From Zingiber officinale (lineage: Eukaryota; Streptophyta; Magnoliopsida; Zingiberales; Zingiberaceae): a stretch of 64,000 nucleotides of DNA. The notes under the pieces were generated by a model. The model was given only the letters and a program-made list of their open reading frames with translations, searched no databases and was not told the origin of the DNA. The translations under genes were made by a program, and so were the position numbers. The stretch's first letter is position 1. Every line of letters begins with the position of its first letter. Of the stretch, positions 16,271 through 52,300 are shown in pieces. The stretch lies in NCBI RefSeq assembly GCF_018446385.1, contig NC_056005.1:63586239-63650238 (forward strand), written 5' to 3'.

Positions 16271-16950
16271 GATGTCTTGTCCCTTATGCAGGTACGCTCA
16301 CTCGTCATTTCTCACTAGTCATTTACTTTTCGTCCGTTCTCTGCGATTTCTGGGGAAAATGTACCTGACTTGAGCATCGGAGGGCCTGATCCGGGGACTT
16401 TTTCCCTGATTCTTGGTCTCTAACGACCGGTGGACTCGTCTGAGTGTGTGCAGAACATTAGCGTCATCGTCCTGATCATCTCTCTCCGTAGGCCGCTCGT
16501 GCGAACCTTTCCAGGGGGTACTCGGCGGATTTAACACTTCAACGACTCTCCGTCAACCTTTCGTAGAATAAGGCCCGCCTTTATCCGACTCAACTTCCGG
16601 ACGGGATCAATTATGATATAGGATTACTAAAGATAATCTTTATGTTTTCTGGAAGTAACCATAATGAGTTAATTGCTACAAAATCTTTACTGAAATTTGC
16701 AATGTTTTTCTCATGTTGGCAAGTATTAAAGCATTTACAAAAAATTCAAGACTGTTAAATCTTGATTTCACTAATTAGTGACCCCAAATAAGTTATTTTC
16801 TTTATGATTCTGGTATTTCACTGACACGTTGTACAAAAGCTGATCTGCTGATCTAGTCAGTGTATCTCTAGAGAGCAAAATAAAATTAAAAGGAAAAAAT
16901 AGCAAATTCAAATGCATATTGATTTAATGGGGATAATTTGATATCATACT

Positions 16951-17217
16951 TTGCGAATATATTTTCTTTCCTTGTTATCCAAGCTTTGCTACAAATGTGC
17001 AGGTGAGTTTGTGAACTGTGTTCGGCACATCAAAATACTATCTCCACAAGAAGTTCAACAAATGAGCCTGGATATTGATTTGGGAAACAACCTCCCAAAT
17101 CAAGCATGCAGCAGTTCAGATGGTGGAAATGCCTGGAGGGGCCAATGTGATCAGAACTCAGGCAATCCATCTGCCGGGTCATATGAACATTTTGAGCGAC
17201 AGATGGTCATGCGGTGA
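16951..17217 (+). pseudogene. Duplicated last exon of the ARF gene
   Basis: This is the inverted copy of ARF exon 14. From about 17,004 it reads [20 protein letters not shown] and ends at 17,215 with the same length of tail and a TGA, with one substitution in the last codons (MVMR for MVMQ). Part of the preceding intron is also copied (16,610 onward). Compared with the intact exon start GCAG/GGAG, the copy reads GCAGGTGAG, a one-base insertion that would shift the frame. No upstream exon is present in the window, so it cannot encode an ARF. It could still be transcribed, or be the 3' end of a larger copy interrupted by the gypsy element. Confidence 0.9.
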
Positions 17218-18081
17218 ACCTGTAATCCAAAACCATTTCCCTTTTCACAATGAAAATTGTCTGAGAAAATTGTGATGGATGATCTCATACTACTGAAATC
17301 CTTCCTAAGACATTGGTTTGCAAGGCTGATTCATGAAAAGCACAGGTAGCCACATGGACCACACCATCCATCCTTTTCTTCTTTTGATGAAGACTAGAAC
17401 TTGAAGAGGAGGCAATTATTAGGATTCTATCAGAAGCGTCAGTCTTCTAATGATTCAGGTATGTTACGTAGTTAAATGCCAGTCCCACTCATAGAATGGG
17501 GACAAGTCTCCAGAGTTTTCAAGTTTGTAAATGTGTAGAGAAACGAGCTAATTTTCTGTATTGATACTGCTTATGTTTTCAATCTAATTGTAACTTATTG
17601 TGCCCACCTGCTGATTACACTTGGTCCAAAGAGCTATCTAGTGGCTAGGAAAAAAAGAATAGTTAGGCTCTTGAGAAATCATGGTGATTTGGACGTCAAG
17701 CTTGAGGAGGTATAACCACCAAAATGCTACTAAATCTTACTTGTGCATCACCATCAAAACTCAAACACACTGTAAGTTTCATCATGTAGGGTGCCTATTT
17801 GATATGACAATGTATTATTCAGCAGTCTTTCTTGAAACTAGTAATTACTCTAGCAAAATGTTCAATATTCCATGAAAATACTGCTGTGGTACCAATAGAC
17901 AAGCATTTACATGGCATCCCAATTATGCCTACATAGTTGATGTAATATCATCAATTAGTACCCATGCAGAACTAGTTATTAATTTATTTATGCAATTTAA
18001 CTTTAACTGCTTGAATAAGAATGACTAGATGCAGAAGCAAACAGCCCAGCCAGCATTGTTCGAAGTACGAGTTGGTGCATT

Positions 18082-18201
18082 TCAACTTTGAAAGTATGAT
18101 TCATATGTAGCAACCCTAGTCTTTAAATCGGGTTGCTCAATTTCATCCATAAACCCCAATGTCATCGAGAGAAAACCCTCCTTGTGCAGTCGCTTCCATT
18201 C
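18082..18201 (-). pseudogene. AIG2-like exon 5, inverted copy
   Basis: This is the same length (120 nt, including stop) as the intact exon at 48,374-48,493, with the acceptor TTAG kept. It reads [20 protein letters not shown] and ends ATYESYFQS stop. The exon itself is undamaged apart from substitutions such as a Ser-to-Leu change near the C-terminus. Exons 3 and 4 are missing from this arm: sequence corresponding to 38,877 is joined to that of about 48,154 near 18,430. Confidence 0.9.
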
Positions 18202-18779
18202 CTAAGAAGCACAGCAAAAAAGTAAGTCAGGAAAACTGTAGTTTTTCAGTGGGAAGTTACAATGTAGCTGTGTCAGGAAGGCAGGTGGAAAAAAAAAGCA
18301 TGTAAGCAAATCAATGTGTTTCATATGAACGTAAATTGAATGGATAAGAGATGCATTGTTGGTGTTCTCAGTTCTCAATAAATTGTCTGGTACTAATTCC
18401 ACCAACCAATTACTAGATCAACAAAGAAGAGAGAAGAAAGCTATAAGTGCCTTTTGAGTCAGGTAACATAATGAGGATGGATTTGTCTTTTCACGAAGTG
18501 ATTGTTTCTTAGTTTTAATTTTCTTCTTTTGAGTTGGGACTTGGGATCCTACCAATTCATATATCATTTTACAAGAGAAACAATTACATCAAGATCATGA
18601 GTAAGAAGTGTAGAAACAATCTAGGTTTAATATTACATTATTAATCCTTAATATCAAGGCTAAGAGCCAATGACCATTCAGTTGATTTCAAATCATGAAA
18701 TCTACCCCGGGAATAAAGCACCTTTCAGAGATTTGATAAAGTATGGTAAAACAACACACCTTGCCAGCCACCTTCTTAG

Positions 18780-19345
18780 TTTCTATGGGAAGAATTGCAG
18801 GATAAACACGTCCCTTTATGCTGTACTTGTGGCTACATGATTAAAATTTGAATTAGTTGCAACATAACTCGATCAATAGAAGCAAGAAATATAGATTTAA
18901 ACCCTTATCAAGCATTGATCCTCAATTCACATGGTCAAGAAGTGGATATACTTCAGAAACAGTTTGCATGGTTAAAAATTGATATGGTATCGGTAATATG
19001 ACCTTTTGTCGACATCAAGCTAAGCCAATGTCTAAATCCACAGGCAACCCCACACCCTCCGAATTTGTCGGAACAAAACGCGTAGGTAAAAGTGCGATTA
19101 GTCATCGACAACCAGATTGAGATCTAATCCATCAAAGAGACGAGAACGGTAGGAGTGCAATCAAACAACCAATCGAGGAGTGGAGGAAGGGGGAAGAGAG
19201 ATAGGTACTAGTGGTTGAGGATGGCGTAGGAAGAGGGAGGGACGTGCTTGAGCAGTGCCTACACAACCTCGTCATCCATCAGAGTGCCGTAGACGAAGAC
19301 GGTGTGCGGAGCAGAAACATTCGTGGCGACGGCCATAGCGGACCG
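18780..19345 (-). pseudogene. AIG2-like exons 1b and 2b, inverted copy with nonsense codon
   Basis: Exon 1b starts ATGGCCGTCGCC at 19,336 and reads [20 protein letters not shown], then DDEVV and a TAG where the intact copy has CAG. Exon 2b (about 18,785-18,830) keeps the IKGRVYPAI region. This copy keeps the family's conserved YGTL motif, which the intact gene has changed to YDTL. With the early stop and the lost exons 3-4 it cannot make a full protein. Confidence 0.88.
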
Positions 19346-19382
19346 ATCTCTTTCTCTCTGCCTCGCTTATGTTCACCTTCTT

Positions 19383-19864
19383 AGTTTCTACGGGAAGAAT
19401 TGTAGGATAAACACGTCCCTTTATCCTGTACCTATGCCTACATGAATAAAATTTGAATTAGTTGCAACATAACTCGATCAATAGAAGCAAGAAATTTAGA
19501 TTTAAACCAGTTCCCATGGTCAAGAAGTGGATATACTTTAGAAACAGTTTGCATGGTTAAAAATTGATACGGTATCATCGGTAATATGACCCTTTGTCGG
19601 CATCAGGCTAAGCCAATGTCTAAATCCACAGGCAACCCCACACCCTTCGAATTTGTCGGAACAGAACGCGTAAGTAAAAGTGCGATTGGTCGTCGACAAA
19701 CTAGATTGAGATCTAATCCATCACAGAGACGAGAACAGTAGGAGCGCAGTCAAACAACCAATCGAGGAGTGGAGGAAGGGGGAAGAGAGATAGGTACTAG
19801 TGGTTGAGGACGACGGAGGAAGAGGGAGGGACGTGCTTGAGCAGTGCCTGCACAACCTCGTCAT
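19383..19864 (-). pseudogene. AIG2-like exons 1a (3' part) and 2a, inverted copy
   Basis: The second part of exon 1a (about 19,797-19,864) and exon 2a (about 19,383-19,430) of the centre-proximal tandem copy lie here. Exon 1a is cut by the LTR element at 19,865; its first part continues at 27,400-27,465. The pieces match the tandem duplicate at 37,376-37,942. Confidence 0.85.
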
Positions 19865-20917
19865 TGTAGGACCGTGATCGTTCGATAGAGGGGGGGTGAA
19901 TATCGATTCGAAAAGTTGAGTTAAAATACGCATCAGAAAAGTAAATGAACACAGTTTTTTTTACTTCGTTCGGAGCCTGTGACGACTCCTACTCGAAGGC
20001 CCGTGGTCCTTGACCACTTTCGTTAGGCAATCACTATCAATTCAAATATAGTTACAAAATTAGTACAGGAAATGCTAGTGAAAAAAAATAATACCGACAA
20101 GGAAATTAACTAAAACCCGAAGGAGCACTTTGTCGGAGCTTGTTGGCGTTGTAAGAACGTAGAGCAGCAGGACCAGCAGTAGAGGAGTTCTCAGATATGA
20201 TGATTGATTACTGAAGCTCCTGCCTGGGGCTTCTTTTATATGTTGCTCCGGGCGCCTGGAATGTGACGTAGCTGCTCAACCCGAGATGCTCCACGTGGCG
20301 ACGACTTGGCTGGATATAATTTGCCTTCCGGGCGCCCGGACCACCTTGTTCCAGAAAACTCCCTTTTCCTGCAAAACAAAGTTAGTCCGAGGCAATATAT
20401 ATCCTGCAAAATAGATTGTTAGCACATTTTATAATAGTATGAATTAGCACAAATAGTATGACTTAGATTCCGTCTTTTCGAGACCGGAATCTAGTCACGA
20501 TCTCGACTTAGATATCCGAAATGGATCTAAGCCGGATCGACGCCTAATGTTCCCTTCCTGGGAACGCGTCCTCACAGTCACTCCCTTCCAGTGACTTACC
20601 TTTACTCACCTGTCAGACGTCCGGTCAGCCCTTCGACCCGTCTGGACTTCTCGCCAGCTATCCGGTCAGCCCATCGACCTAGCTGGACTTCTCGCCAAGC
20701 GTCCGGTCAGCCCGTCGACCCGCTTGGACTTCTCGCCAGCTATCCGGTCAGCCCGTCGACCTAGCTGGACTTCGTGCCAGACATCCGGTCAGCCCGTCGA
20801 CTTGTCTGGACTTCTCCTGCACACTCGATCAAAGTCTCAGACAACAACAAAACTAACTTAACCTATTTGTCATTCATCAAAACCTAGGTTAGACCGTTAG
20901 TGCTACCCGCACCAACA
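19865..20917 (-). mobile_element. 3' LTR of a non-autonomous LTR retrotransposon
   Basis: The LTR starts TGTAGGACCG and ends CCGCACCAACA at 20,917 on the plus strand, followed by the reverse complement of a polypurine tract (ATCTCCCCCTTTTTGATGG). It contains about five tandem 42-bp units (20,607-20,820, GGTCAGCCCGTCGACC type) and GGGCGCCCGG palindromes. It pairs with 26,535-27,399. The flanking GTCAT (19,860-19,864) is an exact 5-bp target duplication with 27,400-27,404. Confidence 0.92.
20607..20820. repeat. Tandem repeat in the LTR, unit about 42 bp, five copies
   Basis: The unit contains GGTCAGCCCGTCGACC, TGGACTTCTCGCC and AGCTATCC or ACGTCC. The partner LTR at 27,220-27,300 has about two copies, so the number differs between the two LTRs of one element. 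Confidence 0.85.
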
Positions 20918-22188
20918 ATCTCCCCCTTTTTGATGGAATGACAACTTGGTTAAGTTAGTGAAAGAACGCAAAAAAACAGGTACATCGGTTTTAAAGTTAG
21001 TTTTAGTGTTTTCAAGTTGGTTTATGCCTCCCCCTTTGGCATTCATCAAAAAAAATAAGCAAGGGTAAACAATCATAGTGTAGAGTTACTTTTTAAAAAA
21101 ATAATCACAGTTAATCTTGGAAAAAAATATCTGAGTTTGGTTCAAAAAAAAATACAATTTTTAAATCCAAGGAAAAAAATCAAGTTGACTTGGGGGAGAC
21201 AAGTTGAATTTTGAAAAGTATAAAATTAAAGTTAATCAAGTTTAACTTTTTAAGCGTGTAAAAAAAAATTTAAATCAGGATTATCAAATTTTCTTTTCAA
21301 GTTTAAGTAACATTTACTTTTCAAAAAGGTAAATTTTTTAACTTCAATTTTTCAAAACAAAGTAAAAATTAAACAAGTAAGATTAAATTTGCCAAAATAA
21401 ATTTTTAAGGCTAATTTGATAAAAGCTAAATTTGGAAGGTTTAATTTTCAAGCATATGTTAAAAAATTGAATAAGTTTAAATTTGCAATAGTCAACTTAA
21501 AAAATTAGGTGGGATTCAACTTCCAAGTTTTTCAAACACTTAGTTTAGCTTTTTGTAAACTGGTGTTTTAAAAATAAGTCAAAATTAAAATAGTATAAAA
21601 GGCATTTTTCAAACATACAAAATTTTAATTAATTTCTGAACTTGATACTTAAATTTAAACAGCTGTCTAACCAATTAGGTACTAACTAACTATCAGAAGA
21701 TAGTAGCTTTCACTTGGTTAGTCAGATTAAGTTGATTATAAGCAGTCAGTCTTTGACTTGACTGATGAACTTAATCTGATTAATATTTGAGTTGTATTTA
21801 ACGTCCAGACTTATGCTGATGCACCGAAATAAGCATCTTAAGTCCAGACAGTTGGTCTATGCATCTCACCCCTTTCTATGTTTGTCAAACACAAGTAAGG
21901 TAAACATAAGGTGTTGGTGAGATGCTCAAAAACTAGTCCTATGGGTACATGCTTTCTAAGAATTCAAAACTAGTCTAAGGCCAAAACTGTTTTTGAAAAT
22001 CTAAAAATGGGAAGTTTTGAAAACAAACAAGTTTAACTTATAATTTGATAAAACCATTTTTGAAAGTATTTTTGAAAAATCCTTAGTCTATCAAGATAGA
22101 ACATAATCAATGTAAGTCTGAAATATCACTAGATAGATCCAAAATATTTTACAGGTAGTGTAGCTATAGAAGTGAGTCATAACTAGAT

Positions 22189-23430
22189 CTACTGAGATGA
22201 TGAAGGGGGTGGTCCAGATCCCAAGGATCGGAGAAGCGCCATCAGCTCAGTGTGTCGGGTATCCCCGGCAGCTCGTAACTCGGCAACCTCTCGCCGAATG
22301 TCCCGATGAAAATCTGAGTTCTCCTGCTGGAGACTCGCCATAGCTCTCTCTAGTCCGGTCATACGGTCGGCTAGAGTGCGGGGAGCGTGACGTGGTGCTC
22401 GAGCTGGGGGCGGTGGTGGAGCCTGTGCGGCTTCCTCTGGAAATAGTGCGAGCATGAACTCTGGATCGGGCTGGTGCTGTGCCCCCCTCCGCCAAGACAT
22501 AGTCCCGTCATCCCTATCTATCTGGACACCAGCTAGGGAGAAGTTCCGAGCTGCTATAACATCGAATTCGGTCATATGGGCAATGTCTCCTCTAGTGACA
22601 TCAATGTGCAACGAGGACATATAGGCTGTCAAAATGTGACAAAATGGCATGTGGACTCGTCTATCAGTCACAAATCCAGCCGAGTAGATAATGGTGGAGA
22701 AGATATGTAGGCTGATGTCAATATCTAATCTATGACTCAGGGCATAGAGTAAAAATGAATGGAATGGGCGCATCACAACGATGTCCCGAGTAGTCAGTGG
22801 TAAAATGCAAAGGACTAAAACCCTATAAAGAGCGTAGTCCTGGACCCGAAGTTCTACCGACCTAAACTGTGTCACAGTGGGATCTCGCTCTCCCCCAAAA
22901 AAATACAAATAAATCGTATCGAGAGTAATATATGAGTAGGGATCTCAGAATGGTAGATCCCTGGGAGGATAACACAAAAAGGAACAAGTAGATGGACGCA
23001 ACTCTAAAAACTCTCGGATAGTCGTAGGGGAAAATGTGATATCAGTGCCTGCTGCCCTAGTGGTATAGGTGAGATCGTCTACTTTCACTAGGTTATTGCA
23101 AAATTCGGCACACAGACTTATGTTTATTGGACTGGTACATTCGACAAGGTTCCTTAAGTTATAGTGTTCTATAACCTCTAAAACAGAGGGACATGACTCT
23201 AGAAAGAATGATCTATCTATGCAGGTAGTCCTAATGGCTTTATAAATGGTTGACTCAAACTTAATCCTTAGTTCATCTGTGGGAAACCTAGGGTCAGAGC
23301 TAGCATTAGAGGGTCCAGCACCAGTATTTGTTCGTTTCCTACTGTATATATAAGAAAATATTCTAAGAAAAAAAATGAGAGGACAAAAAATAAAGTTTTA
23401 GAGAGGGGAAGAATTTTTACCGAGGAGCCA
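22189..23430 (-). CDS. Putative plant transposon protein (PF20167-like) with C-terminal coiled coil
   Basis: On the minus strand, MAPR at about 23,428 is followed by a GTAAAAATT donor and an ATATACAG acceptor near 23,345. The reading then runs to 22,189 with one stop near 22,945. The main frame from 22,908 holds hydrophobic helical sequence and RPFHSFLLYALSH, followed by a Pro/Ala-rich linker (APPPPPARAPRHAP) and a likely coiled coil (LADRMTGLERAMASLQQENS) to the end SSSQ. Such proteins are known from non-autonomous plant LTR elements; the function is unknown. It lies between gag and the 3' LTR, where pol would be. The family call rests on recalled pattern, not a search. Confidence 0.5.
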
Positions 23431-23785
23431 TCGACAAATATAGATCTGACGACCTCGGTTGAATCGCAACAGCGTCTTCACCGCAAGAAAATATGATTTA
23501 AAATACTCTCGCACTAAGGTTTGGAGTAAACCTTTGGCAAAAGTAAAGTTTGTGGGGCAAGGGTTGGGGGCGCCTGCTGCCCCTTATTTATAGGGGACTC
23601 CGGGCGCCTAGATCCCTTCCGGGCGCCCGGGGTTGATTTAGGGCGGGGCGCCCGGATCCCCTTCCGGCCGCCCCGGAGGGGAATACCAGGGGCGCCCGCC
23701 CTTGGTTTTTGACCCTTTTTTTTTTTTTTTTTTGGAGATTTAGGTTTGAAGTTAAGTTTTTAAAATTAAAATTTTGAAGTTAAAA

Positions 23786-24205
23786 TTTTGAAAATAATTT
23801 TTTTTTTTGAAAAAAAATTTAAGTTTAAAATTAAAATTTTGAATTTAATTTTTAAGTTTAAAATTAAAATTTTGAAATTAATTTTTAAGTTTAAAATTAA
23901 AATTTTGAAATTAATTTTTAAGTTTAAAATTAAAATTTTGAAATTAATTTTTAAGTTTAAAATTAAAATTTTGAAATTAATTTTTAAGTTTTAAAATTAA
24001 AATTTTGAAATTAATTTTTAAGTTTTAAAATTAAAATTTTGAAATTAATTTTTAAGTTTAAAATTAAAATTTTGAAATTAATTTTTAAGTTTTAAATTAA
24101 AATTTTGAAATTAATTTTTAAGTTTAAAATTAAAATTTTGAAATTAATTTTGAAATTAATTTTTAAGTTTAAAATTAAAATTTTGAAATTAATTTTTAAG
24201 TCTTA
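23786..24205. repeat. AT-rich tandem array, unit 33-34 bp, about 12 copies
   Basis: The unit is TTTTTAAGTTTAAAATTAA followed by AATTTTGAAATTAA. When the unit is 33 bp it keeps an open frame coding FKFKIKILKLI repeats, but nothing suggests that this is translated. It lies in the internal region of the LTR element, between the two minus-strand coding parts. Confidence 0.92.
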
Positions 24206-24714
24206 TTCATCTCACTCGATCTATATTATCAATCAGGGAATCCTATGATTTTGTGAGATGAAATTAGTTTGATTACAGAGTTTGGTTTAACTAGTATTAG
24301 ATTCAGGTTTAGTTTTGGTCTCTACAAACAGGCATTCTTCGGATAAACTTCTAAGCTTGGTGAGTCACATGGACGTCATTAGAAGTAACCAACCTTTCGA
24401 GGTTTTCCGAATAGTCCTATCCACGGAGCTTAGTACTAAATCTTGGTCTAACTGGTTAGGATTCATTTAAGAGTAGCTTCGGTCAGTTCCACTTGGCCAA
24501 ATGCACTAGATCGAAACCATATCTTTCTAGACATGCGATGCCCAAGTTTCCCTAACGTACTATCATCCAAAAACTTCACCGGTACCATGATTCAAGTTAA
24601 ACTTGGTCTCTAATCCTAATTACCCTGCCGGGTTAATTTGTTTTGGGTTACCCTGTCGGGTAAGTTAGTTTTGGAGGTGTCTGGAGCCTCCCCTTGAATT
24701 ATTGGCCATTGATT

Positions 24715-26305
24715 TTAAATTTTGGTTTTAGGTTTGTGTCGATTCTTTTTATAGTTATGGTTAACTTGGTGATAATTTTGTTGATTTTTAAAGTGTTTAG
24801 ATTTTGAATTTGATTTAGGTTTGTGTCGATTCTTTTTATAGTTATGGTTAACTTGGTGATAATTTTGTTGATTTTTAAAGTGTTTAGATTTTGAATTTGA
24901 TTTAGGTTTGTCCGATTTTATATAATGTATTTTTTCTTTAGGTATATAATATTGATTAAGTCCTACTTGCGTGGTCAGACACGCTTTCGGAACCCAAGCT
25001 AGATTGGTTGATTTGTATTGGGTTATTAATGATTTGAAGGTTTTATTTGAATTCGACTTATATCCTAGTCCGGTTTTATTATAACATGCTTTTTGATTAT
25101 TCAGGATTAAGTCTAAATTTTTTGATCTTGTTGTGAATTTTTCTAACATTTCTTTTAAATTATTAATCTCATTTTTTAATGATAAATTGTCCTCCTCAAG
25201 TGTTAGATCTTGAGTTGGATTTGAATTTTTGATTTGTTCCTTGAGGTTTTGATTTTCCTCAAGAAGTGATTTGTTTTCATTTTCTGTTTTAATTAATTTA
25301 TTGTTTAAACAGGAAATAATTCTAAAAATTTTTTTGTTTAAATTAAAGTATACCTCATTCGGGCCTTCGGAAACGAGTACAGACTCGTGGCTTGTTTCGG
25401 GTTCAGACCCGTCTTCATCTTCCGACTCGTCTTCTGTTTCAGCTTCGTGGGCCATCAGTGCGAGGTGGCTCGATGTTTCTGCTCTTCTTCCTCCGATTTG
25501 TCCGAGTTTTGGGCATTCGTTCTTGTAGTGTCCCTTTATCGCAACCTGCCCTTTGTTCTGTGAGAGAGCTGAGCTTTTGAAGGTCCTTTTTACTGAAGCT
25601 CCTCTTTCTCCTGGTGAACATTTTTCTTACCAAGTTCACCAGGTGTTCTTCGTCTTCGGAGTCATGGTCGGAATCTTCTTCAAATTCAGGCTTGCTTTTC
25701 TTTTCTTTAGTGGAACCTGCAAATAAAGCTATACCTTTCTCGGCTCCAGCATTAGTTTGTTCATGTAATTCTAATTCACAGAAAAGCTCATCTAATTTTA
25801 ACTTAGAAAGATTTTTTGAAATTTTGTAGGCATCCACTATTGATGCCCACAAACTATTACGTGGAAAGGCGTTTAATGCGTACCTTATTAAGTCTCTGTT
25901 TTCCATCTGGTGGCCTATCGCATGAAGCCCGTTGAGGATGTCCTTGATCCTCACGTGAAGCTGATTCGTCGTTTCTCCTTCCTGGATTTTTATATTAAAA
26001 TTTTTATTTAAAAGCAGGTCTCGTTTTGTTACCTTGGCGTCGCTCGTTCCCTCGTGCAGCTCGATCAATTTGTCCCACAGCTTAGCTTTGTAGTCCGTTG
26101 ATGACTTCTTTCTCATGTCCGGAGTCCATTGTTCCAGATCTAGTGAATTTCCGGAGTTGTCGACGGAATTTTGTAGGGTCTCGTAATACTCATCCACTGG
26201 TCGAAGTCGATCTTGAGGTAAACCTCCATCCGCTTTTTCCAGTACGGAAAATCGTCCCGTTGAAGAGTGGGGGCGTACTGTGCTGAATCCTTCATACTGA
26301 GACAT
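24715..26305 (-). pseudogene. Copia-type gag (UBN2-like) of the non-autonomous LTR element
   Basis: The minus-strand reading starts MSQYEGFSTVRP at 26,305. The gag core follows (DKLIELHEGTSDAKVTKRDL, then LKLDELFCELELHEQT), which is typical of retrotransposon gag of the UBN2/DUF4219 group. An acidic stretch and basic RRKRSFSKKDLQK follow. A frameshift near 25,530 separates a CDKGHYKNECPK zinc knuckle, after which a long acidic and Asn/Lys-rich coiled-coil tail runs to 24,715. A 123-bp unit near the 3' end is duplicated (HYKKNRHKPKSNSKSKHFK type repeat). No protease, integrase or reverse transcriptase follows, so the element must rely on enzymes from elsewhere. The frameshift suggests decay. 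Confidence 0.75.
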
Positions 26306-26534
26306 TTTAGTCCTGCACACAGATGAAGAAAGAGACAAAAATCCCAAGACTTGGTCTTGGATTAGTAGTGCGGAAAAAAATTAAGACAAATCTAGATTGG
26401 TGTTGCACCAATTTAGATTTAATTACAAAAAAATGATATAAAAAATGAGAAAAAAAATTTTAAGAGGAAAAAACAAAGGAAAGGTTTCACCCCTCGATTG
26501 GTGGTTGCACCAAATCGAGGCGACCCCGCTCTGA

Positions 26535-27399: not shown

Positions 27400-27465
27400 G
27401 TCATCCATCAAAGTGTCGTAGACGAAGACAGTGTAGGGAGCGGAAACATTCGTGGTGACGACCAT
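27400..27465 (-). pseudogene. AIG2-like exon 1a, 5' part, inverted copy
   Basis: Starting ATGGTCGTCACC at 27,465, it reads [20 protein letters not shown] and stops at the LTR insertion point. The remainder lies at 19,797-19,864. Here the motif is YDTL, as in the right-arm copies. Confidence 0.88.
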
Positions 27466-27998
27466 GGCGGAACCGCTCTCTTTCTCTTTGCCTCGCCTAT
27501 GTTTAGTTGTTTATTTTGCTTTCAGGTAAAATTGTAGGTATATCCTTCGCATATTTTCTAATTTACTTATTTACCATTTAGAATATAATTTTACAAATAT
27601 ATCCTTCTAAAATTTTGAATATTCCATATATTTCATTGTAAAGTTAACTTCTGAACGACTGAGGGGGTTAATATCAATTTTTTTTCCTTTTCTTTCGTCG
27701 TTTGTTCATTTCTATCAATACAAGAATTTGTAGCGGAATTAGATAACAACAAAATAAAAAGGCATAAACGATTTACTTAGTTTTAAAATCCCAAGATTAG
27801 TATGTCCAAGACTTATGATCTGTCTATAATTTTTTATCTCTTTTTCAAAACTTTTCTGGTGGCAGAGAAGCCACTTAGAATTTAAGTACAATCAACAGAT
27901 AATGAAATAACGTACATGTACTTAAATATAAATAAATTTGTCAAGTCGATTTGAAAATCCGTTGTGGGTTGTGTTTTCCTCGTTGTAGTGGAGTAAGT

Positions 27999-28049
<51 letters not shown>
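27999..28049. repeat. (TA)n microsatellite, about 25 units
   Basis: An uninterrupted TA run. The mirrored position in the right arm (36,781-36,799) has only about nine to ten units, so length changed after the duplication. Confidence 0.95.
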
Positions 28050-40900: not shown

Positions 40901-43900
40901 AGTGTGTGCAAAGTTTTGTGCATTTTTTTTGTCATTGGCGCCTAGTTGTATATGGATTAAATATTGTCTTCCTAACGTTTCTGGGCTTTTGATGAGAGCA
41001 AACAATTGGGACTGATTATTTGTTGTGTAAGAAGTTTAAGCAATCAATAATTAGTGCTATAATACTCAAAGGAAGGTTGCAACAAGTAACAAGAGTGACA
41101 ACATCTTATACAATTCTCTAGCCCTCCCCTTGATTAGAAATTTGCAGTGATTAGACTTTCCTTGAAGGCTAAAATTTAAAATTCCTACTTATTCCTTCCG
41201 TATTCTCCTATACCATGTAGTATTCAACTCTTGGCAAGTTATCAACTTCTTCCTTTTGGTTGTTCTTTTCAACGAGTAAGAAATGTTAAGATTAGTGATG
41301 GAGCTAGAGTGGGGTTAGACCTTAAAAATATAAAAATTGGCTACTCTTGCAAATACAAGGGTCAAATTAAGTTAGCATTTAAAAGTTTTTGTCATTGTAA
41401 ACAAAAGAGACATGTTGTGGAAACAAAATATGTGAATACGAATATAATAAACAATGATAAGTGAAGATATTTAATATGGGTTGGACAACCTTGTCCCAAT
41501 CCGCGACCTATAGACTCGCTAAATGAGTCACTCCTGGTAAATACCTATCAAAGAAATCTCTTTCACCTTGTACAATAAGCTTTTTATAAAGATAAAAACA
41601 ATTTAAAGCACGAAAGAAAACTAAAAGAAAAAAACATTTTGCAAGAACTCGAAGTTTATATTATCTTAAGCTCTTGGTTTTATTGAGAGCACTCAGGAAC
41701 TATAAAAGAGAATAAAAAAATGGGTATTTTGAAATTTATGCCATTGTTATTTAGGCCTCCTTTGTTATTTAGGAATAACTTCTCTAGATTGCATTCTAGG
41801 TCCAATATTTCTAAATATGTATGTTCTAGTGTTATAATCATATTGTATGTCCAATATTTCTATAATCTTCCTTTTAGACATTAGTTTGTGTAGTTTGATA
41901 GAAATTTTTTTTCTTCATTGATTGAATATCCTCCTTCTATACAAAGATAAATCCCTTAAAATTAGGGGTGTGATAAGTATGAGCTAATTATAATCCATCT
42001 AGGAAATAAATCCCTACAAAATAGGGATAAAATAACAAATTGTCTAGTTTGTATTTCAACACTTCTAGTGCTAGGCAATAAATGCTCTCCAAATCCAGAA
42101 TCGAACTCAGTACGCTGATGTTGGGTTTGAATAGTGCCTTTGTCAAAATGTCAACGGCTTGCAATTTTGAAGGCCCATGGCGGAGCATGATATCTTTATT
42201 TTCAATCTTCTCTCTAATGAAATGTTTGTCAATCTCCACATGTTTGGTATGGTCATGCTGAACTAGATTCTTGGCAATGGTAATGATTGACGGATTGTCA
42301 CACATAATTTGAATTGGATTTCTTGTTTTTAGCATGAGTTCCGTTAGAATCCATTGTAACCAGATTCCCTCACAAATGCCCAATGTCAGAGTTTGAAATT
42401 CAGTCTCGGCACTACTTCGAGCAACAACTGTTTGCTTTTTACAAGTGATCAAATTTCACTGAACGAACGTACAATATCTAGAAGTAGATCTTCAGTCACT
42501 AGGTGAACCTGCCTGATCAACATCAGTGTAAACTTCCAAGGTTCGTTTGTCTGTCTTTTTAAATATGTGTCTTTTTCCTGGGTCTCTTTTTAGATATTTC
42601 AATATTCAAATTACAACATCCATGTGATCAACTGATTTCTCAGAAATTAACTAATGTGCAAAACTTATATCTGGACAAATGTAAGTTAGGTAGATAAGTC
42701 TGCCTACCAATCGTTGATATCGTCCTTTATCAGCTTCCATTTCGTCAATCTGAAACCTTAACTTGGTATTAGGATCCATAGGTGTATCTACTCTTGTATC
42801 CACCTAATCCAATTCTTGTAGTAGGTCAAAGACATACTTTCTTTGAGACACAAAAATTCCTTTGTGACTTCTAGCAACCTCCATTCCCAAGAAGTATTTG
42901 AGTTGTTCCCGATCTTTGATTTTAAACTCCTTAGATAGGAGTGACTTGAGCCTTTTGATTTCTTATTCATGGTTTCATTTGAGGACAATATCATCAACAT
43001 ATACAGTATTACTAAGATTTTTCCACTTGGAAAATGTTTCACAAATAGCATGTGATTAGCTTGAGACTGGGAGTAGTCATTTCTTTTAAGGACTTTAGCA
43101 AATCTGTCAAACCAAGCTTTAGGTGATTGTTTAAGCTCATACGAGGCTCTCCTTAGTTTGCAAACTTTTCCTTTTGTACTATCTGTCTCATATCTTGCAG
43201 GGACATCCATGTAAACTTCTTCCACAAGATCTTCATTTAGTAACGCATTCTTCACATCTAGCTGAATCAAGGGTCAATCTAAGTTAGTAGCACAGTAATA
43301 TTCGGATTGTATTGAGTTTTGCAACTGGTGCAAAGGCTCCTGATAGTCACTCCCATAGGACTGGGTGTAACCTTTTGCTACCAGTTAAGCCTTGTATCTA
43401 TTTATGCTTTCATCTGGTTTTGCTTGATTGAAAAAATCGACTTATATCCCACAGTTCTTTTTTCTTTGAGGTAGCTCAATAGTGCTCAAGTCAATCTTTT
43501 CCATGGCTGTGTATTCCTCTAGGATTGTCTTGCGCCATTCAGGAACTTTTAGAGTTTCATACACAACTAGGAATACTGATATTCTCAATAGTTGTGCATC
43601 GGATGAAGACTATAAGATCTAGTTCCTTGTCTGTATGTAATAGGCTGGTTCAATGTGGGATTTGTCTATGGAACTGGTTTTATTAGATCCTACTATTTTT
43701 TAAGTTCAACTTGGCCACGAGTTGAGCTATGATATGGCTGAATTTCGTTCAAAAATGCAAGATGTTTCTCCTCGCCTAGACTTCCACTATATCATGGGAA
43801 GGTGGTGTGTTCTTTTGTGGTTCCGAGATAGGTGGCACATGCGATTGTTGTGATGATGAAAAGAACGGAGTTGATGGGGATGATGGAGAGGAAGGAGTTA

Positions 43901-46900
43901 ATGATGATGGTAAGATTGAGGAAGGACTCGATTCAAGAAGGGACTCCCAATCCCAATGTTGTAATGTATTAGAGTAGTATGGAATGTGTTCAACGAAGGT
44001 GACATCCATAGAGTGATAAAATCTCTAAGTGACATGAAAGAAGCACTTAACCTTTTTGTTGGTTGAATATCCCAAGAAAATGCACTTAAGTGCATGTGAA
44101 TCAAATTTTCCCCAATATTAAGAGTAGATGTGGACAAATCCAATACATCCAAAGAGTTTGAGAGATGTTTGAGACAAGTCTGAGTGTGGGATACAGGTTT
44201 TGTAGAACTTGAAATGGAGTCTTGAACTTAAGAACCCCATAAGGGAGGCGATTAATAAGATAGGTAGCTGTTAGAACTACGTTCCCTCAAAATGTTGGAG
44301 TGTGAGCTTTGAAGAGTAAAGAGCGGGCTACCTCAAGTATATGACAATTTTTTCGTTTAACTATACTATTTTGTTAGGGTGTATCAACACATAAACTTTA
44401 TTGGACTATGCCATTATATTGGAGATAGGAGCAAAAGTTGGAATTAAAGAAGTTTTTGCAATATGTATGTCAGCCTGGAACTGGGTCTTGATCATGGTCA
44501 GAAAATTCTGAAAGATTTGTGTGGTCTCAGATTTTTCTTTTATAAGAAAGGTCCAACACAACTGTGTGTGATCATCAACGAAAAATAAGAAAAATCTGGA
44601 GCACTAAGACTTAGGTTTTTGAATAGTCCCCAAATGTCCCCATGATGAGAGAGAAAGGTTGTGTTGGTTGATATTGACGGGGTGTATAAGTGCTGTCTAG
44701 TATGTTTAGCATATTGGCATACATCACACTGAAAGAAATTAGGACTTTAATTGATAAATAATAAAGGGAAAAGATGTTTCGAGTACATGAAATTTGGATG
44801 TCTTAATCAATAGTGTCATATCATAATTTCACTTTGATTATTGGATAGACTATTAGACTTGAAATTATGGATTGTGTAATAGTTGAGCATAGCAAACTGG
44901 CTAGATGTAGGGGAGTGTTCAAGAAGGTAAAGTCCGACATGAAGTTTAGCACTGCCAATCTTCCCAGTGCTAAGTCCTAAAAAACACAACCATCACCAAA
45001 GAACTTAGTTTGATAGTTAAGGTCTCGGTTGAGCCTACCAACCAACACAAGATGACAAGCAAGTCCAAGCATATAAAGCACAGAATTGAGATTGATATTG
45101 TTGATAATTTTAATTGTTTGCGTTCTGACCATTTTGGTACAAGTGTCATTTACTATATGCACCATTAGATGTTTGTCACATAATGAAAATGTTGAGAATA
45201 ACATTCTGTCACCTGTCATATGTTCAGATGCTCCTGAATCGATGATCCAAGAGGACTTGTTTGTGTGCATTGCCATAGGACTGCTTGTCGATGAGTTGGA
45301 AGTTGATCTCTTAAATAGATTGTTCTACTAACATAACTTTTGGAGTATATTCAACTGCTCTTTGGAGTAAGGAGAACTCATAGATATTGAAAATACGCAT
45401 GATGTGTCTTTGCCTCTCGGCTAGAAGGTTTCCAATCAACTGGCTTTCTATGGAATTGCCAGCATTGTTCTTTGAGATGACCTGACTTTCAGCAGTGATT
45501 GCACCAAGTCCTGTTCTTCTATGGTCGAGTGTCACATGCATTTCGAGGCTCACCGATGCTGCGGTTTATGGACTGACTTTGAGCTACTAATGCACTAGAA
45601 TTAGCAAAGGAGTCCTTGTCTCAATTTGGGTTCTCTGAGATGTAGGATTGTCCCAATATTATTCGCTTGTGTCTCTTCTCTCGGCTCACTTCTACAAATC
45701 CTTCCCTAAGTCTAGGTAGTGGCTTGGTGCTAAGAATTCTGCCCCGCACTTCATCAAGCCACTTATCAAGCCCACTTAAGAACTTGAAGACACGCTTTGC
45801 TTCCACAATCTTTCGATAGCAATTTTTTCCTCTGTGCACTTCCATTTGAGAGTTTTGAACATATCTAGTTGTTGCTAATACCAATTGAGTTGTAGTAAGC
45901 TGTCACTGTAGACTTCTCTTGTTGGAGACTTTGCAGAGGGCTCTTCACTTGAAATAACTCTATAGTGTTGTCACGAGGTTTCCCAAACAACCTCCCAAAT
46001 ATCGCTAGTAGAGGTACGTAGAAAACAAATTCACCAACCTCCTTCATCGAGCTGATCAACCATGACATCACCAAGTTATTCTCAGCCCTCCAAATACGAT
46101 GCTATGTTGTTTTAGGATTTGGTTCTAGAATAAAACCAGTTACATAGTCATCTTTGCCTCTTCCACTCATGACCATCATCATGGATTGGGACCATTGAAG
46201 ATAATTGTAGCAATTAAATTTGTGAGTCGTGATGGGAAGGAGACTGCCTTTTGGAGAAGAAGGCATGACGCAGGACATGCCGGAGGAAGTTCCTATCATG
46301 TCTTGCATTGCAAAATCAGAGTCGGCCATGATCCTATCTTACTTGGAAGTCGGTTGCTCTATTTGTTGTCAATGATGTCAGAATGGTGGTCAACGATGCT
46401 GTTGTTGAAAGAACCAACAATCGTCGGAATGGAGGTTGACATTGCTGCTGCTGGAAGAACCATCAATCGTGCGACTTTGTCTTGTGACTAGACGAAGAAC
46501 CAACTGCTAGGGTTTTTTCAGCCAAGGTTTCTGCTTTAATACCATGTATCTATTTCTTTATTGATAGTATATCCTCCTTATATACAAAGATAAATGTCGT
46601 AAAATTAGGGATGTGATAAGTATGAGCTAATTACAATCCATCTAGGAAATAAATCCCTACAAAATAGGGATAAAATAATAAGTTGCCTAGTTTGAATTTC
46701 AACAATTTGTAACCCAAATCAATCTTATACAATCAGGTGTACTTTCCTACCATGTTAAATTTTCTAGAATCATTTGCAATTTGTCTCGTGTTCTTTGATT
46801 TTAAAACTAATCATTCTCATGCTTACCTAGGATTAGTTGATACTAATTTTAGCTTTTTTATGAAGTTATAAATACTTGGTCAATTTTTTAGATTCTTCTA

Positions 46901-48493
46901 ATTGAAAAAGACAAGTCATCCAATACTTTATGTAAACTAGATTTTGTTACCTTCTTAAAGACTTTCCTAGACCCCCTTGGTCTGAGCTTTCCTCTTTGAT
47001 CTTTGCCTTTTTTTGCGTTATGTGCTTGATTAGGTGTTGTCTTCTGGTTCTCCTTTCTTTTCATTCTTTGCATGAGGACATTTTGTTTTGTAGTTTCCCT
47101 TTTCCTTGCATCTAAAGAATATTCTTTGATCTTTATTTTTAGTCATGCCCTCATTATTTAAGGTCAAAGGAGCTTAAAGGAGTGTTGATGATGCTTTGTT
47201 TGTCACTCAACCTTAATGTTGGAATCTCATTTTCCAAGGGCTTGAATGGTTTGATGTGGAAGTAATCGATGAATCTTTGATATTCTTGACTTTCTTCAAA
47301 ATATGATTCTTGATTTATTTCCATTATTTCCACATCTTGTGCTAGTGAAGGATTTTGTGGAGGTCGACCACTTTCCACATCTGAGGGCTTGGCATCTACT
47401 TTCCACTTTTGATAGACTTGCTCTATTTAAGTGTCAATAGTCCAAGGCTCTTTAAATTTTGACATGTGTCCATTAACAGATTAAGTAAAAGTGGATCTAA
47501 GCTGTTCCCTCATCTCACGACATGTGCAATTCTTTAAATTTGTTCAATGATGATTGTTTTAGCTTTATCATTTTTCTCTACAGTTGATCCTAAAGTATAT
47601 TGGAATGGATTTTTTTTTGTCATTTTTTTTGTTTTATTTTGAATCAAAGCGTGATGTAGAAATTGTGGATGGAGCTGATTTTTTTGCAGGCTGTGGCAAC
47701 TCTTCCTTGTCACACAGGGAGATGTGTAACGAGATGTGTGGAGAAATTGGTTTCCACCAACTCCTTACAGGAGCAACAACAGGTGGGGAGAGACCTTCAT
47801 GCTTGGAGGCTACATAAGTGCGTAATTTAGAGCAAGCTGCAGAAAGTTGAGGTTCGAGGAATCTATGAAAGCAATCAATAGCATCTATAAGCAGCTAAGC
47901 AACGTGCAACCTTAGAATCATTTGAGAAGGTTAGATGAGATATCGATCCCATTCACAGAAGAGGCAAACATCTTTCTATTCAATAAACCCCTCTAGGTGA
48001 GGGTTATTGTTATCGGTGATACCACTTTGTTGTGCTGAAGCTCACATAACTGTAGAAGATCAGGGTCACTTGCATAGGAAGCACATGACGAGTGGGCCTT
48101 CTTGAATGAGAGCATAGCTGGTAATGGATGTTAGGATGGAGAATGCGAAGAGAAGTGATCTAGAAATTGGTTGGTTGAATTAGAACCAGACAATTTATTG
48201 AGAACTGAGAACACCAGCAATGCATCTCTTATCCATTCAATTTCCGTTCATTTGAAACACATTGATTTGTTTACGTGCTTTTTTTCCACCTGCCTTCCTG
48301 ACACAGCTACATTGTAACTTCCCACTGAAAAACTACATGTTTCCTGACTTTCTTTTTTTGCTGTGCTTCTTAGGAATGGAAGCGACTGCACAAGGAGGGT
48401 TTTCTCTCGATGACATTGGGGTTTATGGATGAAATTGAGCAACCCGATTCGAAGACTAGGGTTGCTACATATGAATCATACTTTCAAAGTTGA
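37976..48493 (+). CDS. AIG2-like protein (gamma-glutamylcyclotransferase-fold), 5 exons
   Basis: Exons: 37,976-38,103; 38,492-38,552; 39,255-39,347; 40,233-40,316; 48,374-48,493. Joined, they are 486 nt in one frame, 161 codons plus TGA, close to the usual plant AIG2-like length, and all junctions are GT/AG. The protein reads [20 protein letters not shown] at the start, [20 protein letters not shown] in exon 2, then [35 protein letters not shown] and [10 protein letters not shown], ending ATYESYFQS. These features match the plant AIG2 family, named for an avirulence-induced gene; the fold is related to enzymes acting on gamma-glutamyl groups, and the plant role is unclear. The family's conserved YG(S/T)L loop is YDTL here, so catalysis may be affected. 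The last intron is 8,057 bp and contains a Copia element. Convergent with ARF. Confidence 0.88.
40317..41895. other. AIG2 intron 4, first part: no gene recognised
   Basis: AT-rich intron sequence with short TA runs near 40,385. A short reading frame near 41,231 has no recognisable features. Nothing else can be named. Confidence 0.5.
41896..46704 (-). mobile_element. Copia retrotransposon inside AIG2 intron 4, 4.8 kb
   Basis: Short LTRs of about 160 bp lie at 41,896-42,061 and 46,545-46,704. They share TATCCTCCTT, GTGATAAGTATGAGCTAATT and CCATCTAGGAAATAAATCCC. On the minus strand, TGGTATTAAAGC at 46,533-46,544 follows the 5' LTR as a primer site. The LTRs differ by several percent, so the insertion is not recent. 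It lies antisense to the AIG2 gene. A clear 5-bp target duplication could not be confirmed. The left arm lacks this region, so timing relative to the inverted duplication is unknown. Confidence 0.85.
41990..46329 (-). pseudogene. Ty1/copia gag-pol polyprotein, broken (intron copy)
   Basis: In order on the minus strand: gag start [20 protein letters not shown] at 46,329, with a [10 protein letters not shown] stretch typical of copia gag; protease [12 protein letters not shown] near 45,250 (DSG catalytic motif); integrase remnants 44,900-43,900; reverse transcriptase around 43,270 ([20 protein letters not shown]); RNase H ([10 protein letters not shown], then [13 protein letters not shown]) to 41,988. 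Many stops and frameshifts divide it, and the YVDD region is damaged, so no active enzyme is expected. Confidence 0.88.
46880..47400 (-). pseudogene. Retroelement gag-like remnant with zinc knuckle
   Basis: On the minus strand a reading around 47,130-47,020 gives [20 protein letters not shown], close to a CCHC zinc knuckle (the His is replaced by Asn). A Lys-rich tail follows to 46,888. An upstream frame (47,378-47,154, [20 protein letters not shown]) may belong to it. The family is not clear. It lies just outside the Copia 5' LTR and was probably an older insertion in the same intron. Confidence 0.4.
47400..48373. other. AIG2 intron 4, last part: no gene recognised
   Basis: Intron sequence before exon 5. 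From about 48,154 it matches the left arm (reverse of 18,201-18,430). A 77-codon frame at 47,584 shows no known features. Confidence 0.5.
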
Positions 48494-49376
48494 AATGCAC
48501 CAACTCGTACTTCGAACAATGCTGGCTGGGCTGTTTGCTTCTGTATCTAGTCATTCTTATTCAAGCAGTTAAAGTTAAATTGCATAAATAAATTAATAAC
48601 TAGTTCTGCATGGGAACTAATTGATGATATTACATCAACTATGTAGGCATAATTGGGATGCCATGTAAATGCTTGTCTATTGGTACCACAGCAGTATTTT
48701 CATGGAATATTGAACATTTTGCTAGAGTAATTACTAGTTTCAAGAAAGACTGCTGAATAATACATTATCATATCAAATAGGCACCCTACATGATGAAACT
48801 TACAGTGTGTTTGAGTTTTGATGGTGATGCACAAGTAAGATTTAGTAGCATTTTGGCGGTTATACCTCCTCAAGCTGGACGTCCAAATCACCATGATTTC
48901 TCAAGAGCCCAAGTATTCTTTTTTTACTAGCCACTAGATAGCTCTTTGGACCAAGTGTAATCAGCAGGTGGGCACAATAAGTTACAATTAGATTGAAAAC
49001 ATAAGCAGTATCAATACAGAAAATTAGCTCGTTTCTCCAGTTTTCTAAGGAGATGCTACACATTTACAAACTTGAAAACTCTGGAAACTTGTCCCCATTC
49101 TATGAGTGGGACTGGCATTTAACTACGTAACATACCTGAATCATCAGAAGACTGACGCTTCTGATAGAATCCTAATAATTGCCTCCTCTTCAAGTTCTAG
49201 TCTTCATCAGAAGAAGAAAAGGATGGATGGTGTGGTCCATGTGGCTACCTGTGCTTTTCATGAATCAGCCTTGCAAACCAATGTCTTAGGAAGGATTTCA
49301 GTAGTATGAGATCATCCATCACAATTTTCTCAGACAATTTTCATTGTGAAAAGGGAAATGGTTTTGGATTACAGGT
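48494..49376. other. Shared 3' region between AIG2-like and ARF genes
   Basis: These 883 bp between two convergent stop codons must hold both 3' untranslated regions and their polyadenylation signals. The whole stretch is copied in reverse in the left arm (17,216-18,081). No ORF of interest. Confidence 0.7.
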
Positions 49377-52300
49377 TCACTGCATGACCATCTGTCGCTC
49401 AAAATGTTCATATGACCCGGCAGATGGATTGCCTGAGTTCTGATCACATTGGCCCCTCCAGGCATTTCCACCATCTGAACTGCTGCATGCTTGATTTGGG
49501 AGGTTGTTTCCCAAATCAACATCCAGGCTCATTTGTTGAACTTCTTGTGGAGACAGTATTTTGATGTGCCGAACACAGTTCACAAACTCCCTGCACATTT
49601 GTAGCAAAGCTTGGATAACAAGGAAAGAAAATATATTCGCAAAGTATGATATCAAATTATCCCCATTAAATCAATATGCATTTGAATTTGCTATTTTTTC
49701 CTTTTAATTTTATTTTGCTCTCTAGAGGTACACTGACTAGATCAGCAGATCAGCTTTTGAACAACGTGTCAGTGAAATACCAGATTTATAAAGAAGATAA
49801 CTTATTTGGAGTCACTAATTAGTGAAATCAAGATTTAACAGTCTTGAATTTTTTGTAAATGCTTTAATACTTGCCAACATGAGACAAACATTGCAAATTT
49901 CAGTAAAGATTTTGTAGCAATTAACTCATTATGGTTACTTCCAGAAAAACATAAATATTATCTTTAGTAATCCTATATCATAATAATGCCAGAAATTTCT
50001 AGGTCCTGTATTTGGTTTTCAATATTATGATATTCTAAAGAATACAGGAAATATTCCTCATGTCTAAAAGTCATATGTAAAGTGTTTAAGTCATGTTATA
50101 ACTTACTCCCATGGATCATCCCCGACAAGTAGAACATCGTTCTCATGATCTACATAAACAAGTTTCCAGCCGATTCTCTGACGATCTTCAAGCTGTCCCT
50201 CTATGCTGAACATCCGTGCAAGATCATGTTTTAGCTCATCATATCCTGAATAACGTGTGATATCTATTGATCTGCCAACAGCTCCTCGCTTATAGACCTA
50301 CAAACAATATCACATGTGTATTAGAAAAACAGTACAACTAATGCATAAACTAGCAGTTTAGAAATAGATTCAACATGGTGGATTGTTTCAGCTAATATCA
50401 AAAAATTGGGCGATTCTTACATCCATCAGCAGAAAAGTTTCAGCATAAATGCTAAACCCATCTAAGCTACCATTTGCATTAAATTTCCATGGTACTACAG
50501 TATATACAAAGAGCTGTAAAAGGTTTGGACTTTCACCTTCCCTTCATGGTGATCAAACCTAAATTAAGTTCAGATAAGATTTTGCAAATAAAAAAAGCAA
50601 TCCAGTTCATCTTCCAATTGTATTTTCACAAAGTGATGTTTGAAGAAGTCGAAAGACCATACCTTGGTGTACGTGCGCTTGCGTTGAAGTTGTGGTGGCG
50701 GTGGTGGAGCCCAGGAGTTTAAGAACCCATTTTCACTAATAGTTGAATCAATTGAATTAAATGCCACATCTGGAACTCCAAATGATTGTGAAACCATTGA
50801 TGATGACAGCTCTTGTTGAGCATCTTTTGTGGTGTTGTAACTGGCAACTATATCACTAGGGATGTGATTCTGATACTTTTCAGAGTCAATGCTGTTAACC
50901 ATCAAAGCATCAGAAGTGAAAGGTATTCCCAACGTGCCATCAATGTTAACTCCAAAAAGTACATTGTTCCTGGGGTCTGTATTAGGAACATCACTCTCTG
51001 GTGGTGCATCTCTGAGCACTGGCGGTTGATTAAAATTTGACAGAGGGAAGATTTGATTTAAGGATCCATTAGTCTGAGATAGGCATACAGAAGTTGCTGA
51101 GGAGGTTGTGTCTAAGTAATCCATTTGCGCTGTGTTGCTTACATAAGTTTGAGGTGCTACAACACCCTGATGTTGCACCTTGGAAATTGGGATTGATGGC
51201 TTTACATTATGAACAATTTTTGGAAGCTCCTTCGGCATATTTGTATTTGCTGCTGGAGCTGAGTTTTGATTAAGCAATGTAGCAAGTGTCTGAGATGCCT
51301 TCTCTGTTGACAATTGATTGCATTGTTCATGTTTATTTAGAGCTATATGGGGAGGAATAGCTCCATTGTTTGTTGATGGTGATGTGGAGCATGATGGGAC
51401 ATCATCTGTAAGCCCTGATTGTGCCCCACCAGCACCCATCAAGGAATTTCCAACTGCTGGGATAATATTTGTGGCTTGGTTAGCTGGAAGGATAGCTGCA
51501 GGTAATTCACCCAGTAGAACTTCCTGCTGCTGAGATTTTTGCTGCGGCTGGTCTTGGGATGACTGTGGCAGCCTCACAGACTGTGAAGCAACCTTTGGAC
51601 ATTGTTCAGAGTTGATTGATTGCTGAAATAGAGAATTGAGATTTGATAACTGCTGCGATACATCTGGGAGAGTTTTTTGGTACTCCTGACTTTGGGAGAG
51701 TTGAGCTGATTGCATTCTCGGCTGTGAAAAATGTGGATGCTGCTGCTGTTGGAGTTTCTGTAGCAACTGCAACTGAATCTGTTGGTCGGATAATTGTTGA
51801 TTTACATGGCTGGGGAGTTTAACAGGCATCATGCCTTGTGACTGCTGGTATTGCTGCTGAAGTAGTAATTGCTGCTGTTGTTGCTGTTGCTGATGTTGCT
51901 GCAGCTGATGCTGTTGTTGCTGTTGTTGCTGCTGCTGCTGCTGGTGGAGCAATTTCTGAGTATTTTGTTGTTGATTTTGTGGCAGGCTGGCCTGTAATAG
52001 CTGATTGTTACGAATTATCGCTTGCTGTCGTTGCTGTTGTTGCTGCTGCACTTGAGACTGTACCAGTAGTTGTGTCTGTATGACATTGTTCTGAGTCTGG
52101 TTCAGTGGTAATGCTTGGTTGACTATCTGCTGCTTCTGCTGCATTGATAAATCTTGCAATTGCTGTGGAGATCTACTAGCAGCACCCACTTGGCTCACTG
52201 GGATTGAGACCTTAGCGAGTTCATCAACTTGCTGGCCTGGTTGAGATAATCTACTAGGGTGAAACTGTATGCTATTTTGCTGCAACATTTGAGCTTGCAA

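Follow-up and report, generated by a model that had tools for sequence, protein, structure and literature searches.

An aged inverted duplication of AIG2-like and ARF gene sequence in ginger, with truncated transposable element sequence at its axis

Introduction

Inverted duplications belong to a known class of event. In human fold-back cases, as described in the source (PMC3907307; the texts cited here are excerpts of the papers), the inverted copy stands beside its template, a short spacer is left unduplicated and inverted homology is found at the spacer edges, with interspersed repeats at the edges in three of 21 sequenced junctions. Hairpin-mediated foldback inversions also occur in yeast (PMC7467729, excerpt). 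Here we describe an unusually readable inverted duplication in ginger (Zingiber officinale), a palindrome of an AIG2-like gene and the 3' part of an auxin response factor (ARF) gene, in a stretch of 64,000 nucleotides of chromosome C20 (C20:63586239-63650238, 'the window'; negative window coordinates denote C20 positions upstream of its start). The human cases adjoin terminal deletions or translocations and duplicate 10 kb to tens of Mb (PMC3907307, excerpt), whereas the ginger locus is interstitial, has a template of about 17.3 kb and is old.

Two further comparisons come from plants. The VIM4-VIM2 (Cvi) and PAI1-PAI4 loci of Arabidopsis are likewise palindromes in which a short spacer separates adjacent copies of a gene, and they make small RNAs and affect their homologues (PMC13213937, excerpt). 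The inverted-duplication model of plant microRNA origin (PMC3237417, excerpt) shares with our locus the inverted duplication of transposable element (TE) and pseudogene sequence and the involvement of a miniature inverted-repeat transposable element (MITE). The ginger locus has high-identity inverted gene copies around a short spacer, as small-RNA-producing gene palindromes do; unlike these systems it is known from DNA sequence alone, and one of its arms is heavily decayed. Inverted copies as such are common in ginger, since 16,787 inverted duplications have been counted between the two haplotypes of its haplotype-resolved assembly (11 pairs, 3.1 Gb, pseudochromosomes of 88.69-194.39 Mb; PMC8342452, excerpt). 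A literature search found no paper on this AIG2/ARF palindrome and none on long palindromes with a central deletion.

Results

The inverted duplication is real. Self-BLAST pairs four blocks to the left of the axis (arm 1) with minus-strand matches to its right (arm 2; Table 1), the palindrome centre (33507-33880) matches its own minus strand at 82.9% identity, and matching sequence within the window amounts to about 6.8 kb per arm. When all seven arm segments were compared by exact 21-mers, 1184 of 1791, 654 of 1407, 194 of 711, 1203 of 2497, 47 of 147, 269 of 683 and 162 of 350 arm 1 words recurred in arm 2 in inverse orientation; in the control comparison, arm 1 (16610-33506) and window positions 51100-64000 had none in common. 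The longest exact inverted stretch of the gene part has 170 bp, and that of a long interspersed nuclear element (LINE) has 201 bp. The mirrored content comprises LINE fragments and, located with peptides by tblastn, two tandem sets of AIG2 exons 1-2, AIG2 exon 5 and the last ARF exon. The LINE fragments of both arms encode a DUF4283 domain above the cut-off, accompanied by an endonuclease-type match under it. As in fold-back events, template and inverted copy are adjacent, with 47 nt left unduplicated between them.

The limits 16610/49984, which a sequence-only reading had given as the outer ends, do not hold. Arm 1 resumes upstream of the window at -32755..-32053 (arm 2 50670-49976, 95.0%) and again at -51124..-50755 (arm 2 51031-50663, 95.2%), two pieces whose counterparts are contiguous in arm 2. 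The first interruption of arm 1 is 48,662 bp long, with TG...CA ends and a 5-bp ATTAT target-site duplication; the second is 17,999 bp long, its ends read CAGCCCTGG...CCGGGGCTG and its target-site duplication is ACACCAAG, 8 bp (both interruptions read by eye). From these ends and duplications we take them to be a long terminal repeat (LTR)-type element and a hAT element, respectively. The edge at 16610/49984 is thus the end of an LTR-type insertion and not of the duplication. We place the outer end at 51031, within the large exon of the ARF7/19-like gene, because no third copy of ARF sequence was found beyond it. The sequence 51032-51800 has two copies in the genome, gene and allele (both candidates scored); no third near-identical long copy was found for 52600-53100 (best 40 of 8032 candidates) or 58200-61400 (best 40 of 51 candidates), the remaining scored candidates for these two queries being repeats or shorter, more distant ARF exons; and a search of 123 kb of C20, from window -89999 to 33000, found no further sequence of the large ARF exon. 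Homology stops sharply at 51031/-51124 against unrelated DNA, as fold-back predicts, although a further TE insertion may lie exactly at this junction. A search with the C20 DNA upstream of arm 1 returned repeats and no C19 match (best 39 of 61274 candidates). As the template we take arm 2, the arm that continues into the full-length ARF gene; unfolded, this template measures about 17.3 kb (33721-51031).

With these limits most of the sequence-only reading stands: its mirror-ordered blocks, its 47-nt spacer and its loss of 9 kb (a 9.28-kb segment missing from arm 1 and present on C19) were all recovered, and its core of about 7 kb per arm agrees with the length measured in the window, although as the size of the duplication that figure gives way to the template length above. 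It had also described a host gene pair copied tail-first beside itself. AIG2 and the 3' part of ARF were indeed copied into an adjacent palindrome; tail-first applies to ARF only, AIG2 coming head-first outward from the axis.

Next to the axis the two arms agree at 70 of their innermost 71 positions, and the last ~45 nt of each arm are the 3' end of a MITE that is truncated on its 5' side. Of the 47 spacer nucleotides, about 36 are an internal piece of the same family. Four full-length copies elsewhere (L003, L005, L007 and L008) have 169 bp between identical end motifs, with 9-bp target-site duplications, read by eye, that are clear in L005 and L007 and imperfect in L003 and L008; at least 79 genome matches were found, the locus itself included (best 40 of 49 candidates). 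The family is thus a multi-copy short element with a 9-bp target-site duplication, as MITEs are, presumably of Mutator type. The copies at the axis are neither complete nor flanked by duplications, only the 3' end being left in each arm. As single-stranded DNA the MITE end folds on a stem TCCAGAA/TTCTGGA around AA; among 200 shuffled sequences, six folded equally well for window 33621-33682 and five for L007.

The gene copy in arm 1 is decayed, and its parts resemble pseudogenes. The arm is without the 9.28 kb that hold AIG2 exons 3-4 and without 230 bp near the axis, and its exon 1a is interrupted by an LTR retrotransposon flanked by a GTCAT duplication, with an empty site in arm 2. In the ARF part, PB1 and the last exon are still readable, and the piece of the large exon carries stops and a change of frame. 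A 2.7-kb element between repeats of about 80 bp spans 28145-30990, repeats included; arm 2 has a single such repeat at 36609-36689.

C19 (99.7 Mb) and C20 (97.1 Mb) behave as homologous chromosomes in the assembly used here (3.09 Gb, 211 contigs), in which related genes are also paired on C1/C2, C11/C12, C15/C16 and others. To the right of the axis, window coordinates 36376-96729 align to C19 in several pieces at 93.8-97.6%, with gaps for sequence found on C20 only. On C19 the arm 2 side is collinear with C20 in the opposite direction. Past the AIG2 upstream region comes LINE sequence to 71755115; within 85 bp the LINE reverses, running from 71755200 or before to about 71755850, and is followed by the 2.7-kb element and some AIG2 upstream sequence to 71760239, with small insertions interspersed. 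In window terms, C19 runs along arm 2 to LINE position 35785 and then along arm 1 from LINE position ~31629. C19 arm 1 ends next to a high-copy 3.35-kb element. Searches of C19 for further copies found none of AIG2 exons 1-2 (all four candidates scored) and none of the ARF 3' end (all five candidates scored). The palindrome of C19 is thus the same one, but it lacks the centre and has a shortened arm 1. The single C19 copy of AIG2 exons 1-2 had suggested a heterozygous palindrome that C19 lacks; the centre-deleted palindrome with its truncated arm 1 rules this out.

The presence of both arms on both chromosomes allows their divergence to be ordered. At gap-free sites where the four LINE copies split two against two, all six group by arm, none by haplotype and none crossed, and a 1-bp indel also groups by arm. 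Each remaining variable site sets a single copy apart, 46 in C19 arm 1 (mostly an alignment-end effect of an extra 46 nt) and 9, 9 and 8 in the others. Kimura two-parameter (K2P) distances between the C20 arms are 0.020, 0.037, 0.036, 0.042, 0.058 and 0.033 over six segments, those between arm 2 alleles 0.003-0.032 and those between arm 1 alleles 0.028-0.033. The 2.7-kb element stands in arm 1 of both haplotypes and the single 80-bp repeat in arm 2 of both, so its insertion or loss preceded the haplotype split. The by-arm site patterns and the common state of this element place the duplication before the haplotype split. Substitution rates are of the order of 0.65-1.3e-8 per site per year; at these rates a divergence of 0.035 corresponds roughly to 1.3-2.7 million years, and conversion between the arms would mean a greater age.

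Table 1. Features of the palindrome and the adjoining ARF gene, in window coordinates.
Position	Strand	Feature	Evidence
16610..18420	+	Arm 1: copy of last ARF exon (from 17005, +), its 3' flank, AIG2 exon 5 (18201-18085, -)	96.8% to 49984-48156 (self-BLAST, minus strand); tblastn
18438..19864	-	Arm 1: tandem copies of AIG2 exons 1-2; stop codon in exon 1b (19336-19211); without exons 3-4	93.7% to 38875-37435 (self-BLAST, minus strand); tblastn
19865..27399	.	LTR retrotransposon within AIG2 exon 1a, arm 1 only	LTR pair, copia gag match, junctions, GTCAT duplication
27400..28225	-	Arm 1: remaining AIG2 exon 1a and AIG2 upstream region, 80-bp repeat at end	85.3% to 37439-36609 (self-BLAST, minus strand)
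28226..30911	.	2.7-kb element between ~80-bp direct repeats, arm 1	self-BLAST, C19 comparison
30912..33506	-	Arm 1: LINE fragment, DUF4283 at inner end, weak endonuclease match	95.0% to 36689-34111 (self-BLAST, minus strand)
33507..33673	.	Arm 1 inner end; last 71 bp (33603-33673) finish in ~45 nt of truncated MITE	70/71 match to other arm
33674..33720	.	Spacer of 47 nt (axis); ~36 nt an internal MITE piece	
33721..33880	.	Arm 2 inner end, mirrors 33507-33673	
33881..34110	.	230 bp of arm 2 with no arm 1 counterpart; interpreted as a loss from arm 1 close to the axis	
34111..36689	+	Arm 2: LINE fragment; single 80-bp repeat at 36609-36689	
36690..38875	+	Arm 2: AIG2 upstream region, tandem exons 1a-2a and 1b-2b (1b 37976-38101, 2b 38487-38552)	tblastn
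38876..48155	+	Arm 2 only: AIG2 exons 3 (39255-39347) and 4 (40242-40316); copia fragments between exons 4 and 5	
48156..49984	-	Arm 2: AIG2 exon 5 (48374-48490, +), last ARF exon (49389-49589, -)	self-BLAST, tblastn
49976..51031	-	Arm 2: ARF PB1 exon (50106-50297) and end of large exon; outer end of duplication	arm 1 counterparts 32-51 kb upstream of window start
49380..62463	-	Full ARF7/19-like gene, limits approximate, exons by eye	beyond 51031, gene and allele the sole near-identical copies among scored candidates

In arm 2 the two genes lie tail to tail, ARF on the minus and AIG2 on the plus strand. The AIG2-like gene matches PF06094 (E 5.8e-21). The ARF protein has ARF_AD and AUX_IAA matches above the Pfam cut-offs and a B3 match below its cut-off, and the best match of its PB1 domain is Auxin response factor 7 (4nj6, E 3.8e-30). 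AIG2 exon 1b reads VYDTLM in C20 arm 2, whereas the C19 allele (71752795-71752670) and the decayed arm 1 copy read VYGTLM. The change falls in what we take to be the conserved glycine motif of the AIG2-like family, and the AIG2-like gene of C20 may therefore be impaired. A miR167-like site, sought with a 21-nt target, was not found within five mismatches in window 16000-64000.

Tandem arrays lie at 4239-4825 (73-bp units), 15213-15878 (66-bp) and 23818-24151 (33-bp, inside the arm 1 retrotransposon). An inversion of about 1.3 Mb distinguishes the haplotypes outside the window (C19:70.473-71.796 Mb; on C20 up to 64.898 Mb, with one breakpoint at C20:64898042/64898047), and the truncated arm 1 of C19 lies about 36 kb inside its edge. 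Its C19 ends carry one LTR-type element in inverted orientation (70471372-70472749 and 71795849-71797070, 95-96%), which is absent from the C20 site; this suggests ectopic recombination between inverted element copies in the C19 lineage. The palindrome is not itself the inversion breakpoint, as the C19 breakpoint lies at the LTR-type element about 36 kb away. Pairs taken as allelic have the same orientation at C19/C20 23.76/13.29, 42.46/35.65, 81.73/76.94, 88.79/85.23 and 98.27/95.65 Mb, and an oppositely oriented pair of AP2 genes (C19:17907016/C20:7137806) hints at another haplotype inversion.

Discussion

We think it probable that the palindrome is a non-recurrent inverted duplication of fold-back (hairpin) origin. 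The truncated, hairpin-forming MITE beside the LINE would have held a broken or stalled end, which would have folded onto itself and served as primer for synthesis running outward through LINE, AIG2 and ARF to 51031; a short template switch within MITE sequence would have left the 47-nt spacer, and the new end would then have been joined to unrelated chromosomal DNA. Deletions and TE insertions have since eroded arm 1, and the palindrome of the other haplotype has lost its centre. Fold-back at the MITE is favoured because the axis lies in MITE sequence and the MITE end folds.

The near rival is replicative template switching between sister strands at the MITE, without folding of a broken end, the MITE piece in the spacer then being a templated insertion; we presume that such a process would resemble fork stalling and template switching or microhomology-mediated break-induced replication (FoSTeS/MMBIR). 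The internal MITE fragment between two MITE ends speaks for it, as it requires at least two switches within MITE sequence, whereas the outer junction shows by eye no further switch. Sequence alone does not separate this process from fold-back, and we regard it as possible, if rather unlikely. Palindromes are difficult to assemble, and one arm's reads could in principle have been assembled twice. However, the arms differ by 2-6% in substitutions and contain arm-specific insertions with target-site duplications; moreover, since C19 carries the same palindrome with a different centre and the LINE sites group by arm, misassembly is very unlikely. Arms of about 100% identity and absence from the other haplotype, the marks of a misassembled palindrome, are both lacking. 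The sequence-only judgement of a true, aged rearrangement rather than two copies of one read is upheld by the arm distances (K2P 0.020-0.058), by insertions particular to each arm and by the C19 palindrome with its other centre. The centre does consist of LINE and MITE sequence, as it would if two inverted LINE insertions, or gene captures borne by TEs, flanked the locus by chance, but the mirrored order takes in exons, introns and intergenic sequence of the host and stops only midway through an ARF exon, and we give such a coincidence hardly any credence.

Several observations weigh against fold-back at the MITE or against the proposed age. The hairpin signal is modest: equally good folds were obtained from 26 of 200 shuffled sequences for MITE copy L005 and from 90 of 200 for the spacer piece. 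The MITE ends on both spacer edges and the MITE piece between them are read in the duplicated state only, and neither the initial break nor the joined end is visible. At 47 nt, the spacer falls far below the range of the human cases (766-70,466 bp; PMC3907307, excerpt). With regard to age, one of the six by-arm LINE sites stands at an alignment edge, the margin in the LINE is thin (0.041-0.045 between arms and 0.032-0.033 between alleles, with standard errors of 0.007-0.009), and over 281 bp of the upstream region no separation of the four copies is seen (K2P 0.026-0.039). A 46-nt LINE piece (C19:71755155-71755200), in frame, is present in C19 arm 1 and missing in the other three copies; it misfits a simple by-arm tree and implies conversion between the arms or repeated deletion. 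The LTRs of the arm 1-only retrotransposon differ by a K2P of 0.108 when the unequal LTRs are aligned globally (the main BLAST piece, of 837 columns, has 44 mismatches and 30 gaps), more than the 0.020-0.058 between the arms, even though the insertion would be expected to be younger than the arms. To explain the 46-nt piece and the LTR divergence, conversion between the arms, repeated deletion or fast decay of the LTRs has to be invoked.

Whatever its origin, the palindrome could be a working regulatory structure, in which transcription across the axis would give double-stranded AIG2/ARF RNA and small RNAs acting on the AIG2-like gene or the ARF. The AIG2 copies stand head to head around the axis, with the exact inverted stretches given above, and the VIM4-VIM2 and PAI inverted repeats of Arabidopsis are precedents, crossing transcription being possible in VIM4-VIM2 (PMC13213937, excerpt). 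However, exon 1a of AIG2 begins about 3.7 kb from the axis with the LINE between, and the arm 1 gene copy is broken by insertions. As the AIG2 copies point away from the axis, a hairpin RNA would need transcription across the LINE. We consider such a function improbable and regard the palindrome as passive, although inverted-repeat RNA might be made from it. In a narrower and still somewhat less probable form of this idea, the C20 palindrome, both arms of which retain gene sequence, would yield inverted-repeat small RNAs in its haplotype alone, directed at the AIG2-like gene and the ARF7/19-like 3' end, C19 having been disarmed by the loss of its centre and of the arm 1 gene part; if true, the two haplotypes of a single plant would form a natural on/off pair.

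The centre of a long palindrome tends to be lost, and its birth is therefore seldom readable. In ginger, one genome holds two states of one ancestral palindrome, one with the axis kept and one with a central deletion. The locus thus offers a roughly datable plant inverted duplication with a MITE at the fold, and allows palindrome-fed small-RNA silencing to be tested.

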